A stretch of 64,000 nucleotides of DNA, from contig NZ_RDBE01000006.1 in assembly GCF_003674065.1 (NCBI RefSeq), positions 1 to 64,000 on the forward strand, in the 5' to 3' direction. Below, piece after piece: positions 51,684 to 58,746 of this stretch. Under the pieces are notes generated by a model, which saw nothing but the letters and a program-made list of their open reading frames with translations, made no database searches and had not been told where the DNA came from. A program made the position numbers and the translations under genes. Each line of letters starts with the position of its first letter. Position 1 is the first letter of the stretch. This DNA is from Nocardioides mangrovicus (lineage in GTDB: Bacteria; Actinomycetota; Actinomycetes; Propionibacteriales; Nocardioidaceae).

Positions 51684-52328
51684 TCAGGTCGTCGTGCGGT
51701 CGCGGTCGAGGTGGTCGCGGGCCCACAGCGCGGCGCTGGTGCGGTCGGCCACGCCGATCTGGCGGAACACCCGCCCCAGGTGGGCCTTGACGGTGCGCTC
51801 GCTGATGCCCAGGTGGCGGGCGATCTGCTTGTTGGCCAGCCCCTGCGCGACCAGTCGCAGCACCTCGACCTCGCGGGCGCTCATCGAGTCGCCGGGGCGC
51901 CCCGAGCTATCGGGCAGCAGGACCCGCGCCACCCGCGGGTCCAGCGGCACGTGCCCCTCGGCGGCGGCGCGGATCGCGGCGAGCAGGTCGGCGGGCTCGC
52001 AGTCCTTGAGCTGGTAGCCGACCGCGCCGGCGGCCAGCGCCTCGGAGACGCGGTCGCGGTCGGAGAAGGAGGTCAGCACCACCACCCGCACCTCGGGGTG
52101 CTCGGCCAGGATCCGGCGGGTGGCCTCGACCCCGTCGACGCCGGGCATCGAGAGGTCCATCAAGACGACGTCGGGTCGGTGCTCGGCGACCATCGCGACG
52201 GCCGCCTCGCCGTCACCGGCCTGGCCGACGACCTCGAGCCCGTCGGCGGCCGAGATCAGCGCCGTCAGCCCCAGGCGGACCATCTGGTGGTCGTCGACCA
52301 GCAGGACGCCGATGGACGGCTCGCTCAT
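51684..52328 (-). CDS. NarL/LuxR-family response regulator
   Basis: 214 residues: receiver domain with Asp12/Asp13 and phospho-acceptor Asp58 (VVLMDLSMPG), and a LuxR helix-turn-helix (SAREVEVLRLVAQGLANKQIA; TVKAHLGRVFRQIGV). ATG at 52328 overlaps the kinase stop as ATGA, so the pair is coupled. Confidence 0.92.
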   Translation of the reverse strand: MSEPSIGVLLVDDHQMVRLGLTALISAADGLEVVGQAGDGEAAVAMVAEHRPDVVLMDLSMPGVDGVEATRRILAEHPEVRVVVLTSFSDRDRVSEALAAGAVGYQLKDCEPADLLAAIRAAAEGHVPLDPRVARVLLPDSSGRPGDSMSAREVEVLRLVAQGLANKQIARHLGISERTVKAHLGRVFRQIGVADRTSAALWARDHLDRDRTTT

Positions 52329-53809
52329 GCGCGGGGCTCCTCGTGATCGGGGACCGTGAGCCGCCAGTGTGTGCCCGCCCCGGGCGCGGTGGCCACCTCC
52401 AAGGTGGCGCCGGCGTCGGCGGCCAGGTCGCACAGCAGCTGCAGGCCCAGGTGGCCGGGCGCGGGCTCGCGGAGCCGCTCGGCGACGTCGAACCCGGGGC
52501 CGTCGTCGACGACCTCGAGCTTGACGGCGTGGTCGTGGCGTCGCAGCGTGAGGGTGACGGTGCCGGGTGCGGCGTGCTTGGCGGCGTTGCGCAGCGTCTC
52601 CTCGGCGACGCGGTAGACCAGCCGCTCCTGGGCGCCGTCGAGGCCCAGCGCGTCGTCGGCGTCGGGCAGCAGGCGCACCTGCAGCCCCTCAGCGCGCACG
52701 GTCTGACCCAGGTCGGCCAGTGCCGCGCCGAGGCCGGCGCGAGACAGGCTCGGGGGATAGATCTCCACCAGCAGGGTGCGCAGAGCGCGGATGCTGGTGC
52801 GCACGGAGGCGGAGACGGTGCGCAGGTCCTCGGCCAGGGCGCCGTTGCCGCCGTTCTCCGCCGACGCCGTCGCTCCCGCCACGACGAACGAGGTGGCCGC
52901 GAGGTCCTGCACCGGTCCGTCGTGCAGCGTCGCCGCGATCCGGCGCCGCTCGGCCGAGGAGGCGTCGACGGCGCGGCGCAGCAGGTGCTCCCGCTGCTCC
53001 TGCGCGCGACGCGCGCGGCCGAGCAGGTGCACGACGACCGGGGCCAGCAGCACCACGAACAGCAGCAGGGTGCTCAGGGTGACCCCGGCGAATCCGCGCC
53101 ACAGCTGCCCCGAGCGCCGCGAGACCTGGTCGTAGGACTCGTAGATCTCGAACAGGGCCGTGCGCCCGTCGGGGGTCCACACCGGCCGGTAGACCTCCAC
53201 CAGCTTCTCGCCCTTGATCCGGTCCAGCGCGTTCTCGGGCCGGCTGAGGTCGGAGATCTCGGCCTCGGTGCGCGGCGAGGCCAGCGCCTCGCGCTCCTCG
53301 TCCTCCAGGCCGAAGTGCTTGCCCTCCAAGGAGGCCTGGTCGGCATAGGCGATGGTGCCGTCGGAGCGCCACAGCCGCACGCGCACCACGATGCCGCCCA
53401 GAATCTGGCGGCGGACGACGGCGTCGAAGGCGGCGCGGGCGTCGGGATCGCCGTCGATCAGCGCGTCGGTGATCGCGGGCTGGACGATGCCCTCGGCGAG
53501 CACGTCGGCGGTGTCGGCCGCGTCGGCGACCGCTTCGCGCTCGGCCAGCCGACGCGCGGCCAGCGACCCGCCGATGGTGACCACCGCGAGCACGGCGATG
53601 ACGGCTACGACCAGCTGCAGCAGCAGTCGCCGCGAGGACAGCGGCGGCTCGGCGACGGCGACCGGGTCGGCCGCGCCGAGCAGCGTCCACGGCGCACGCG
53701 GCAGCGGGGCCGTGGGCGTCTCGTCGGCGCCGGCACGGTCCCGGCCGAGCGGCCCGTGGTCGACGGACCGGGTCTGCTCGCTGCTCTCAGTCGTCCGAGT
53801 GGTGTCCAC
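52325..53809 (-). CDS. Sensor histidine kinase (HisKA_3 type)
   Basis: 494 residues. An Asp/Pro-rich cytosolic N-terminus, membrane helix about 62-82, an extracytoplasmic sensor of about 155 residues (sCache-like, 84-238), second helix about 240-262, then HisKA_3 with phospho-acceptor His296 in ATLHDGPVQDLAA and the ATPase N box EETLRNAAKHA and DDGPGFD. GTG at 53809 overlaps the His-rich protein gene by 23 bases. Confidence 0.9.
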   Translation of the reverse strand: MDTTRTTESSEQTRSVDHGPLGRDRAGADETPTAPLPRAPWTLLGAADPVAVAEPPLSSRRLLLQLVVAVIAVLAVVTIGGSLAARRLAEREAVADAADTADVLAEGIVQPAITDALIDGDPDARAAFDAVVRRQILGGIVVRVRLWRSDGTIAYADQASLEGKHFGLEDEEREALASPRTEAEISDLSRPENALDRIKGEKLVEVYRPVWTPDGRTALFEIYESYDQVSRRSGQLWRGFAGVTLSTLLLFVVLLAPVVVHLLGRARRAQEQREHLLRRAVDASSAERRRIAATLHDGPVQDLAATSFVVAGATASAENGGNGALAEDLRTVSASVRTSIRALRTLLVEIYPPSLSRAGLGAALADLGQTVRAEGLQVRLLPDADDALGLDGAQERLVYRVAEETLRNAAKHAAPGTVTLTLRRHDHAVKLEVVDDGPGFDVAERLREPAPGHLGLQLLCDLAADAGATLEVATAPGAGTHWRLTVPDHEEPRA

Positions 53810-54332
53810 CTGAGCCCTTGTCGTCCCCGGACCCAGTGCCGGTGCCGCCGTCGTCCTGGCCGGACTGGCCGTGGTCGTCGCTGCTCGCCTCGTGCTGACC
53901 GTGGTCGTCCGCGCTCGCGGCGTCGTGGCTCTTGTCGTCGGTCCCGTGCGACTGGTGCGCCTGGTGCGACTGGTGCGACTGGTGCGACTGGTCGTCCGTG
54001 CTCGCCGTGTGGTGCGGCCGATCCTCGGCAGCCGACGTGTGATGGCCGCTGTCGTGGGCGTGGTCGTCGGTGCCTGCGGCGTGCCGGCCGTGGTCGTCGC
54101 CGGCCTCGGAGTGCCGGCCGTGGTCGTCACCGGCCTCGTGGCGCCGGCCCTCGGCGGCCCCTTGGCGAGCCCCTTCGGCCGCACCGTCGTCGACGCCCGC
54201 GCCGGCAGCCACCAGCGGCCGCACGATGTCGTGGCTGACGCCCCGCGCGAACGACGCGCTCCCCCACAGCCCGAAGGCGGCCGGCACGAGGGCCGCCGCC
54301 ACCGCGACCAGGTAGATGGTGATGCGCTTCAT
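53787..54332 (-). CDS. Exported or membrane-anchored His/Asp-rich (metal-binding-like) protein
   Basis: 181 residues. An N-terminal hydrophobic helix (ITIYLVAVAAALVPAAFGLWG) acts as signal or anchor; beyond residue 50 it is dominated by His, Asp, Ser and Gly with repeats such as GDDHGRH (two copies) and SHQSHQSHQAHQSH. More than 20 His residues occur in the C-terminal half. Such sequences chelate Zn, Ni, Co or Cu. ATG at 54332 has GGAGG seven bases upstream. It is the first gene of the operon with the sensor kinase and regulator, hinting that it feeds or buffers the sensed metal. Confidence 0.75.
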   Translation of the reverse strand: MKRITIYLVAVAAALVPAAFGLWGSASFARGVSHDIVRPLVAAGAGVDDGAAEGARQGAAEGRRHEAGDDHGRHSEAGDDHGRHAAGTDDHAHDSGHHTSAAEDRPHHTASTDDQSHQSHQSHQAHQSHGTDDKSHDAASADDHGQHEASSDDHGQSGQDDGGTGTGSGDDKGSGGHHSDD

Positions 54333-54429: not shown

Positions 54430-55332
54430 TCACGCCATCGGGCTTTGGTCGTAGTACCCGTGCACGTCGCGCGCGGCCACGACGGCCCGCAGCTGACCGG
54501 TCGCCCGGGCCGCGACCGGGTCCTGCTCGGCCCGGGCGGCCAGGTCGAGCAGCGCGAAGAGGTCGGCGGCGCGGGCGCGATCGAGTGCGTCAGGGCGCTG
54601 ATCGGGCACCAGCCGGCCCCGCGCCTCGAGCACCGCCTCGACGTAGGCGGGCGCGCGGTCGAAGCGGAGCAGGTTGCCCAGGTCGGCGTAGGGCGATCCG
54701 GCGTGGGCGAACTCCCAGTCCACCAGCCCCGTCACCTCGAGGGTGTCGGGGTCGACGAGCACGTTCTCGGCGTTGACGTCGCCGTGCACCAGGCAGGTAC
54801 GGGAGACGGTGTCGAGCAACGCCTGGGCGTCGGTGAGCACCTCGCCCAGCGCCGACAGGTCGGCCTCGGGCCAGTCCAGGTCGACGTGGTCGGCGAAGCT
54901 CGGCAGGTCGGCGTACGCCGGGGGCAGCGGCGCGATGGCCAGGTCCGGTCCGTCGAGCAGGCCCGGCCGGGGCGTGGCGATCAGCGCCAGCCGGCCGAGC
55001 ATCGTGCCGAGCTGGTCGCCCACGCGGCCTAGCGCGGCGTCGTCGAGGTCGGGCAGCACCTGCTCGAGTCGTACGCCGGGCAGCAGGGAGGTGACCAGCA
55101 ACCCGGGCGCCTCGTGCTCGGGGTCGGCGCGGCGGACCTCGAGCACCTCGGCCACCGGCAGGAGTCCGCGCACCCACGACAGCACCGCCGCATCCACCTC
55201 GGGAGCCTTCGGCCCGCGCCGGACCGAGCGGCCGCCGTAGATCCGGACGACCACGTCCTCCCCCGCGACACGGGCCCGGAAGGTCTCGCCGCTCATCCCA
55301 CCGGGGAGCGGGGTCGGCTCACCGATCTCCAC
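54430..55332 (-). CDS. Aminoglycoside phosphotransferase-fold kinase
   Basis: 300 residues of the APH/choline kinase fold. Catalytic loop LVHGDVNAENVLVD and metal motif GLVDWEFA are intact; the Gly-rich N-lobe is PGGMSGETFRARV. Substrate unknown; these proteins phosphorylate sugars, choline-like compounds or antibiotics. ATG at 55332. Divergent from the methyltransferase gene with 20 bases between starts. Confidence 0.85.
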   Translation of the reverse strand: MEIGEPTPLPGGMSGETFRARVAGEDVVVRIYGGRSVRRGPKAPEVDAAVLSWVRGLLPVAEVLEVRRADPEHEAPGLLVTSLLPGVRLEQVLPDLDDAALGRVGDQLGTMLGRLALIATPRPGLLDGPDLAIAPLPPAYADLPSFADHVDLDWPEADLSALGEVLTDAQALLDTVSRTCLVHGDVNAENVLVDPDTLEVTGLVDWEFAHAGSPYADLGNLLRFDRAPAYVEAVLEARGRLVPDQRPDALDRARAADLFALLDLAARAEQDPVAARATGQLRAVVAARDVHGYYDQSPMA

Positions 55333-56172: not shown

Positions 56173-58746
56173 TCAGACCAGCCGGCGCCGCAGCAGCACC
56201 ACTCCGCCACCGGCCAGCAGCACGCCGGCGCCGGTGAGGGCCCGAGCCAAGTTGCGACCGTTCTGCCCGTCGTCGCCCTGGATGACGTAGCTGTAAGCGG
56301 TCAGGCCCTGGGCACCCTTCGGCGCGCCGTAGGCCATGTCCTCGGTGGAGGCCAGCCGAGCTCCCGCTTTCATCACCGCGACGTTCTCGCCGTAGGTCTG
56401 CGCCGTGGACTCGCCCTTGCCGACCAGCTTCTTGGTGCCCTCGTTCGACAGCTTGGTGGCACCCTCGGGCAGCGCAGGAGCCGAGCCGGCGGCGGTCTTG
56501 AGACCGTCGGCGAGCTTGCTCGAACCGGTCGCGGCGGCCGTCAGGCCACCGGAGAGCTTGGTCGCGCCCGCCGAGATCTTCCTGGAGCCGTCGGAGGCGG
56601 TCTCCGCACCGTCGGCGACCTTGGTAGCGCCATCGGAGAGGGCGACCGAGCCGTCGGAGGCCGTGGTGGCGCCGTCGGCGAGCTGCGCGGCACCGGTCTC
56701 GAGTCGGCCGGCGCCGTCGTCGAGCTGGTTCGCACCGGTGTCGAGCTTGCCCAAGCCCGCGGTCAGGTCCGAGCTGCCGCTGTAGGCCGAACCGGCGCCG
56801 CTCTGCAGCTGCGCGATCCCGGAGACGGCGGCCTCGACCCCCTCGGCCAGCTCGTTGAGACCGGACCTGACCTGCCCGAGGCCGCCCTTGACCGTGCCGG
56901 CACCGGTCTGCAGCGACCCCACGCCGGTGATCGCCTGGGCCAGGCCCCCCGCGATCTGCGCCGCCCCGCTGTTGAGCGCACCGCCCGAGGCCAGTGCCGT
57001 CTGCGCCGAGTCCAGACCGCCGGAGACCTGGCCCAGAGCGCTGACGGCCGTCGTGAGACCGGACTTGAGATCGGCGAGGTTTCCCTTCGCGGCGCTCAGC
57101 CCACCCAGGACGTTGGTGGCATAGCCCACGCAGGTGGGGTCACCGTTGCAGTAGCCCTTGAGCACGGTGACCCCGCCGCTGAGTGCGTCGATGCCCGACG
57201 GGTCGATGGAGCCCGCTGCGCCGCTCAGGCTGGACTTGACCTGGTCGACGCCGCCCCTCGCCGTGCCGATGCCGCCGGCTGCCTGCGAGAGACCGCCCTG
57301 CAGGTTCTGCGCACCGGTCTTGAGCTGGCCGAGCGCACCGTTCAGCGATGACAGACCGCCCAGAATGGTGGTGGGTGAGGCGTTGTCGCCCATGCCGGCG
57401 ATCAGCTGGTCGATGCCGGCCTTGAGTTGCGCGATGGCGTCGTTGGCGGACGGCAGTCCGCTCTGTGCGTCGTTGAGCTGGCCGAGGCCACCGCTGATCT
57501 GCTTCAGGCCCGCCGTGAGCTGGGTGCTCCCGGCCAGCGCCGATCCGGTGCCGTCGGCAAGCGAAGCGGTGCCCGAGGCGAGGTCGGAGCTGCCCGCCGC
57601 GAGCTTGCGCGCACCGGTGTCAAGTTTGCCCAGACCGGCGCGCAGGGCAACCGCTCCGGCGGCCACCTTGCCGGACCCGGTGTCGAGCTGGCCCAGACCG
57701 GTCTTGAGCGTCAGTGCGCCGGCGGCGAGCTTCTCGGCCCCCGGAGCGGCGTCGTCGCTCAGGCCGTCGTCGAGCCGGCTCGCGCCGTCGCGCAGCTTGA
57801 TCAGGCCGGCCAGCAGCTGGGCCGAGCCGTCGCGCAGCTGGAGGAGGTGGGCGTCGATCTTGACCGCGCCGTCGGTCAGCTCCGCGCCGCTGTCGGCGCC
57901 GCCCTGGTAGGAGGTCGAGGCCGACTTGAAGGTGGGGCTCTCGAGCGGGTTGACCGGCAGCGCGGAGATCTCGACGCGGGGCACCACGCCGTTCTTGACG
58001 TCAGCGGTGTAGCCGAAGGTGGAGGTGGTCGAGCCGACCGGCTTGAACAGCGTCATCGTGAACGACAGCTGGGTGCCGCCCTCTCCATCGCCGGCCATGT
58101 TGGCGGCCTGGGAGCGGATGTTGGTGAAGCTGCTGGGCAGCGTCGTGTCGACCGACCCGACGATCGGCATGACGACGTTCACCTCGCGAGTCACGGTGCC
58201 GCCGTTGCCGTCGGCGATCTGGACCTTCTCGGTGCGACCCGTGCGGTTGGTGACGGTGAAGGTCACCTGGAGCTTGCCGGACCTGCCGACGACGTCGCCG
58301 GGCCGGACCGTCTTGCCGTCGAGGCTGTAGTGGACGGCGACGTCGAGCGGCAGCTTCTTGGTGTAGGTGCTCACCGTGCGGGTCTTCTTGGTGCCGTCGA
58401 CGGTGGTGCGCACGACCTGGTCGCCGCCCTTGGTCGAGATGTGGGCGAAGCCGTCGAGGTTGCGCAGTCCCCGGGTGGAGACGGGGTTGAGGAGGTCGAC
58501 CGACCCGTGACCGGTCATGGCCAGCTGCTCGTAGACCCGCTGGCTCTCGATCTTCGCCTCGGGCGACATGTAGACCTGCACGGTCTCGGTGTTGACGACG
58601 TCGACGTGGCCGCTGCTGCCGATGGTGCCTGCAGCCATCGCCGGGGTGGCCCCGGCCAGCGCGAGCAGTCCGAGCGCCCCGCTCAGCGCGGCGCCCCGTC
58701 GCAGGTGGGGTCGCAGGTGGGGTCGCAGATGGGTGCGCGACGTCAT
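56173..58746 (-). CDS. Large exported L-x-x-G heptad-repeat protein
   Basis: 857 residues: signal peptide (GLLALAGATPAMAAG), an N-terminal beta domain (about 40-290), then about 500 residues of repeating L-x-x-G heptads (for example KLDTGARKLAAGSSDLASG), forming a long coiled or helical rod, and a C-terminal membrane helix (ALTGAGVLLAGGGVVLL) with basic tail. Two Cys lie in the rod centre (YCNGDPTCVG), probably a disulfide. The repeat class matches YhgE/Pip-like and related surface proteins of Gram-positives. Function unknown. Its ATG overlaps the stop of the upstream membrane protein (TGATG). Confidence 0.82.
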   Translation of the reverse strand: MTSRTHLRPHLRPHLRRGAALSGALGLLALAGATPAMAAGTIGSSGHVDVVNTETVQVYMSPEAKIESQRVYEQLAMTGHGSVDLLNPVSTRGLRNLDGFAHISTKGGDQVVRTTVDGTKKTRTVSTYTKKLPLDVAVHYSLDGKTVRPGDVVGRSGKLQVTFTVTNRTGRTEKVQIADGNGGTVTREVNVVMPIVGSVDTTLPSSFTNIRSQAANMAGDGEGGTQLSFTMTLFKPVGSTTSTFGYTADVKNGVVPRVEISALPVNPLESPTFKSASTSYQGGADSGAELTDGAVKIDAHLLQLRDGSAQLLAGLIKLRDGASRLDDGLSDDAAPGAEKLAAGALTLKTGLGQLDTGSGKVAAGAVALRAGLGKLDTGARKLAAGSSDLASGTASLADGTGSALAGSTQLTAGLKQISGGLGQLNDAQSGLPSANDAIAQLKAGIDQLIAGMGDNASPTTILGGLSSLNGALGQLKTGAQNLQGGLSQAAGGIGTARGGVDQVKSSLSGAAGSIDPSGIDALSGGVTVLKGYCNGDPTCVGYATNVLGGLSAAKGNLADLKSGLTTAVSALGQVSGGLDSAQTALASGGALNSGAAQIAGGLAQAITGVGSLQTGAGTVKGGLGQVRSGLNELAEGVEAAVSGIAQLQSGAGSAYSGSSDLTAGLGKLDTGANQLDDGAGRLETGAAQLADGATTASDGSVALSDGATKVADGAETASDGSRKISAGATKLSGGLTAAATGSSKLADGLKTAAGSAPALPEGATKLSNEGTKKLVGKGESTAQTYGENVAVMKAGARLASTEDMAYGAPKGAQGLTAYSYVIQGDDGQNGRNLARALTGAGVLLAGGGVVLLRRRLV

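Follow-up and report, generated by a model that had tools for sequence, protein, structure and literature searches.

An overlapping operon with an exported first product

What does a His-rich exported protein do when its gene leads an operon that also encodes a sensor kinase with its response regulator? The operon in question lies on the minus strand (positions 51684-54332) of a 64,000-nucleotide stretch of Nocardioides mangrovicus DNA, hereafter the window, and comprises three overlapping genes for an exported protein, a sensor kinase and a NarL-type regulator. A preliminary description read these genes as a metal-responsive module in which a chelating protein and an extracytoplasmic sensor act together. 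The features of the operon are as follows:

53787..54332 (-): exported protein of the family termed class A here, 181 aa (ORF, profile match)
53787..53809 (-): 23-bp overlap of the class A gene with the kinase gene
52325..53809 (-): sensor histidine kinase, 494 aa (domain matches, model)
52922..52924 (-): kinase H296, predicted phospho-acceptor in the motif LHDGPVQ
51684..52328 (-): NarL-type response regulator, 214 aa, with receiver and GerE helix-turn-helix (domain matches)

Both gene overlaps mentioned in the preliminary description are confirmed; they measure 23 bases between the class A and kinase genes and 4 bases where the regulator start overlaps the kinase stop. The class A gene has a GGAGG ribosome site before its ATG, and the kinase starts with a GTG at 53809 that has AAGGG ahead of it. 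Downstream of 54130 this GTG is the sole remaining start codon in the kinase frame, all other start codons of that frame lying within the class A gene; a longer kinase ORF reaching 54184 is an artefact of the open frame. Scans of the operon for promoters, terminators and Rfam families gave no match. An APH-family phosphotransferase is encoded on the same strand (54430-55332, minus strand), with 97 bp between its gene and the class A gene downstream, and window positions 56173-58746 (minus strand) encode an exported protein of 857 aa that has a C-terminal anchor and long repeats of the L-x-x-G type, and for which Pfam has no significant match.

Examination of the second and third products shows that they constitute a HisKA_3/NarL-type two-component system. 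The kinase contains a HisKA_3 domain (residues 287-354; PF07730, 35.2 bits against a cut-off of 24) and a HATPase_c domain (395-488; PF02518, 42.2 bits against a cut-off of 26.4), and the regulator matches PF00072 (102.1 bits) and PF00196 (73.9 bits). The sensor region of the kinase (about 87-232), which lies between TM1 (about 57-89) and TM2 (about 236-267), has no match in Pfam, Cache families included. Its structural model (pLDDT 92) matches the fold of the single-Cache domains of WalK, CitA and DcuS (Foldseek E 1e-5 to 1e-4; TM-score 0.60-0.67 on the target), which bears out the earlier suggestion of a Cache-like sensor; the region is thus predicted to be a single α/β PAS-like (single-Cache) domain between two TM helices.

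Class A as a family

The class A protein of the window has 23 His in its 181 residues and a single N-terminal hydrophobic stretch (19-residue hydropathy maximum of 2.24 at residue 4), in agreement with the initial report of more than 20 His residues in repeats behind a membrane helix. Residues 1-29 form the export segment or anchor, and the remainder is a disordered, acidic, His-rich tail with a net charge of -22. Part of the His excess of this protein stems from two tandem repeats in the gene, listed here with the conserved segment:

54246..54332 (-): conserved N-terminal segment MKRITIYLVAVAAALVPAAFGLWGSASFA (family comparison)
54059..54149 (-): 30-bp tandem repeat, 3.0 copies, encoding HEAGDDHGR-like units
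53946..53992 (-): 9-bp tandem repeat, 5.2 copies, encoding the QSHQSHQSHQAHQSH stretch

Searches of Pfam with the window protein and four relatives recovered no family, and NCBIfam gave just a weak match to the window protein, far under the cut-off. Of the 843 six-frame ORFs in the window, a profile of 47 relatives, built without the window protein, recovers only that of class A (E = 1.2e-12), with the match confined to profile positions 1-32. This conservation of the N-terminus rules out a low-complexity chance ORF.

Among the relatives compared there are 70 distinct class A members, which share the N-terminal consensus MKRI..A..AAVPAxxGLxGNASFxxxVPVRVP. What is conserved is the export segment VPAxxGLxGNASFxxxVPVRVP, followed by a disordered acidic Asp/Gly tail that is net negative in 69 of the 70 (median -18), lacks Cys in all of them, and carries DDxGG units, often with a GGHG(S/G)DD end. 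In the window protein VPVRVP, which in relatives comes next after MKRITIYLVAVAAALVPAAFGLWGSASFA, has been lost, and RGVSHDIVRP stands in its place. Class A precedes the kinase in eight named families, namely Nocardioidaceae, Intrasporangiaceae, Microbacteriaceae, Cellulomonadaceae, Promicromonosporaceae, Propionibacteriaceae, Nakamurellaceae and Jatrophihabitantaceae, and in unplaced actinomycete MAGs, among about ten families compared. On sequence grounds, class A is an unnamed family of small exported actinomycete proteins; it is new with respect to the largely open-access literature searched, in which no description of it was found.

Genomic linkage of class A with the kinase

The 299 Nocardioidaceae genomes searched contain 22 class A matches, and in 20 of these the kinase gene follows directly; of the remaining two, one runs into a contig edge, and the other is an unlinked second copy that shares its genome with a linked one. 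This unlinked copy (L247, G060:C3:72956-73081, in a genome matching Marmoricola sp. URHB0036) adjoins no kinase of this family. A phylum-wide search of 397 genomes found class A in the window genome only, and since its first look scores few candidates, absence in that search is weak evidence.

Among 120 homologues of the kinase in Nocardioidaceae, the regulator is next to the kinase on its 3' side in 111. The exported partners are class B (72 cases), class A alone (14), B with A (3), C with A (3), C alone (3) and C with B (1), with none of A, B or C in 24. These counts indicate that the slot before the kinase is usually occupied by some exported protein, and the kind of partner tracks the kinase tree, with 13 changes where shuffles give 45. 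As to whether homologous kinases regularly lack the His-rich gene, a point on which the preliminary description had staked its proposal, class A is indeed absent beside 100 of the 120 but present in 20 of about 26 members of the window's own kinase clade. The wider kinase family can evidently do without class A, which linkage and the co-variation described below tie, by comparison of these genomes, to one kinase clade.

Class B, a secreted all-β protein, is about 95 aa long and has two invariant Cys (for example, L107:2712-3110 and L067:3709-4098). It occurs in the upstream regions of loci L064-L155, some of which also adjoin class A or C, has no Pfam or NCBIfam family, and in a fold search gave just weak matches to all-β, mostly Ig-like, domains. 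Class C is a secreted protein of about 290 aa with the motifs NGTTYNPAxGKDxKL ... LGVYDYSLTGA, which adjoins the same kinase operon, sometimes divergently (L060:2130-3035, L042:4584-5444, L190:2444-3295). Its hosts are Aeromicrobium, Nocardioides, Microbacterium and Nakamurella; Pfam has no family for it, and it was not found in the window genome. A separate kinase clade (L114, L129, L130, L144 and relatives) is without any small exported gene of classes A-C, and in part of this clade a SARP/BTAD-like regulator ORF lies upstream of the kinase. In the neighbour survey, which consists of noisy, uncurated ORF clusters read by eye, exported classes B and C were the only recurrent neighbours, and metal, transport and biosynthesis genes were not seen.

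Co-variation of extracytoplasmic kinase residues with class A

Comparison of the kinases points to two sites outside the cytosol that co-vary with the presence of class A:

53084..53098 (-): RGFAG motif, kinase residues 238-242, outer end of TM2
53177..53179 (-): kinase W211

The outer end of TM2 reads LWRGFAG(V/I)T in kinases of the class A clade, and LWRGFAGVT in the window kinase directly downstream of class A. Counting every distinct close kinase whose upstream sequence is long enough, 82 of the 84 that have class A carry RGFxG, as do none of the 21 that lack it, counts that are to be read with the motif having been chosen after the fact, many of the kinase sequences being related, and the named-family set having been partly seeded with RGFxG. 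Two kinases (L188, L254) have class A and lack the motif. W211 shows a similar distribution (82/84 with class A, 1/21 without). In the motif-blind part of this set, from genomes drawn by kinase query alone from the taxonomic class and two families, RGFxG is present in 14/15 kinases with class A vs 0/11 without (Fisher 1.6e-6, a value that ignores kinship). Ten of the class-A-less genomes in this sample were searched whole and yielded no class A, with four positive controls recovered; in the eleventh the only match is marginal (E 5e-4) and lies within a long open frame, and we take it as chance. In the family-wide search, too, class A was found nowhere in the Nocardioidaceae genomes of class-A-less kinases.

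Some class-A-less kinases nest within the class A clade, and kinases of this clade without class A have WKGFLAI, WRGFAAI, WRGFTAI, WGGFAVI or WRAFAGV at the motif. In the nested kinases the largest losses among 135 conserved columns are those of G242 (frequency 1.00 to 0.12), N95 (0.87 to 0.00) and W211 (0.98 to 0.12), all of them extracytoplasmic; the catalytic columns are hardly altered (mean drop of 0.02 in HisKA_3 and 0.05 in HATPase). The kinase tree holds about seven class A changes. A kinship-aware independent-pairs test gives the expected direction in 4.4 of 5 supported pairs and the opposite one never (p 0.06-0.25); this direction agrees with the co-variation, but the pairs are too few. 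The window kinase has A95 in place of N95; given this substitution and the absence of VPVRVP from its class A partner, the window system may be a derived case.

A proposed role for class A and its alternatives

We propose, as the probable reading of this locus, a three-component signalling operon whose class A product binds the kinase outside the cytosol as a co-sensor, that is, as an accessory subunit. Class A would remain at the outer face of the membrane, either anchored or secreted, where its conserved segment would touch the outer surface of the kinase close to the membrane (N95, W211 and RGFxG at the start of TM2). The disordered acidic tail with its variable His would sample the envelope, responding to cations, pH, cationic peptides or wall polymers, and the state of the tail would bias the single-Cache kinase, which would in turn phosphorylate the NarL-type regulator. 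Loss of class A would then free the contact residues of the kinase to change. The operon layout, the conservation of the family, its linkage to this kinase and the residue co-variation are observed; what we infer is a physical contact between class A and the kinase, a direction of effect from the former to the latter, and a kind of signal. In a more general form, to which we give slightly less than an even chance, class A proteins might be widespread exported subunits dedicated to their kinases, with a segment that docks and a polyanionic tail that acts as an antenna, and the partner in the slot might be exchangeable (A, the β-sandwich B, or C). The notion that the exported protein and the sensor act together survives as a functional tie, supported by linkage and residue co-variation, and metal chelation as their shared role does not.

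The same facts are accounted for by a rival in which class A hands a ligand to the Cache domain. Alternatively, class A could be output rather than input, an envelope protein that is co-transcribed with and regulated by the system and leaves the kinase unbound. The class A gene leads the operon, classes B and C are encoded within such operons or next to them, sometimes divergently, as members of a local regulon would be, and an unlinked second copy of class A exists, all of which would fit such a role. However, it does not predict that extracytoplasmic, membrane-proximal residues of the kinase change when class A is absent, and we regard it as unlikely.

Decidedly unlikely is the metal-responsive module originally proposed, with a His/Asp tail that would capture Zn, Ni, Co or Cu outside the membrane and present or buffer the metal for the Cache sensor in the manner of SilE or ZraP. 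The 23 His of the window protein, the DDHGG present in 47/70 class A relatives and the HG(S/G)DD-like C-terminal end in 50/70 are consistent with it, as is the precedent of SilE, a disordered, His-rich exported metal sponge for which direct signaling to SilS has been proposed (PMC5008109). However, tail His across the 70 members ranges from 0, in one Microbacterium protein, to 15.1% (median 5.2%), with the window protein being the highest of all, and at position x of DDxGG (182 cases) His (107) gives way to Arg (37) and Lys (15). In SilE and PcoE ten His are all conserved (PMC5008109), unlike class A, whose 70 members show no such conserved metal-ligand His positions. Furthermore, no conserved His or Cys is seen in the sensor domain among kinase relatives, and no metal transport gene was seen to recur near the kinase operons. 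Because tail His varies in this way, the metal module is rejected as the common function of the family, a verdict that covers the family and not the window protein.

Finally, it is highly improbable that class A is the precursor of an autoinducer, an exported signaling peptide that the Cache kinase would detect. Class A is small and exported, it precedes the kinase, and its C-terminal end is conserved (GGHGSDD in 26/70, GGHGGDD in 10/70), but this end is identical in distant families and would therefore provide no signaling specificity, no processing enzyme or transporter recurs among the neighbours, and conservation peaks in the N-terminal segment rather than in a peptide core.

Comparison with known systems

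The preliminary description knew of no described system of such composition; similar ones are in fact known. In the HbpS-SenS-SenR system of Streptomyces a secreted protein modulates a membrane sensor kinase (PMC4991794, PMC3754957), and the window operon resembles it as an actinomycete trio of secreted protein, sensor kinase and response regulator. HbpS is folded, forms octamers and binds haem/iron (PMC3754957), whereas class A is disordered-looking, acidic and Pfam-less and falls outside the HbpS family. YycH and YycI are membrane-anchored extracytoplasmic accessory proteins that act on WalK (PMC7355866). The outer domain of WalK is also the best fold match to the window sensor. WalK belongs to a HisKA/OmpR-type system, unlike the HisKA_3, NarL-type system of the window, and YycH/I are folded, unlike class A; no sequence relation between the two systems was found. 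The likeness to SilE/PcoE, in which a disordered exported His-rich protein likewise belongs to a system with a sensor kinase (SilRS/PcoRS), is superficial: SilE binds Ag+ and the His of SilE/PcoE are fully conserved, whereas those of class A are variable in tails dominated by Asp and Gly, and no linked efflux genes are seen with class A. At the level of sequence, the class A system belongs to none of the HbpS, WalK-YycH/I and SilE systems. Overall, the operon is real and its outline ordinary, and its parts are new.

Implications

The variation of the class A tails cautions that His-rich low-complexity tails should not be called metal sites before their relatives have been checked. To our knowledge, the signal is known for only a minority of two-component systems. 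In the class A systems, co-variation marks N95, W211 and RGFxG as likely points of contact between the exported protein and the kinase, and with these residues named, single mutations can test whether a disordered protein tunes a Cache kinase. The relatives with such systems include members of Microbacterium, Cellulomonas, Knoellia and Nocardioides, cultured strains among them.
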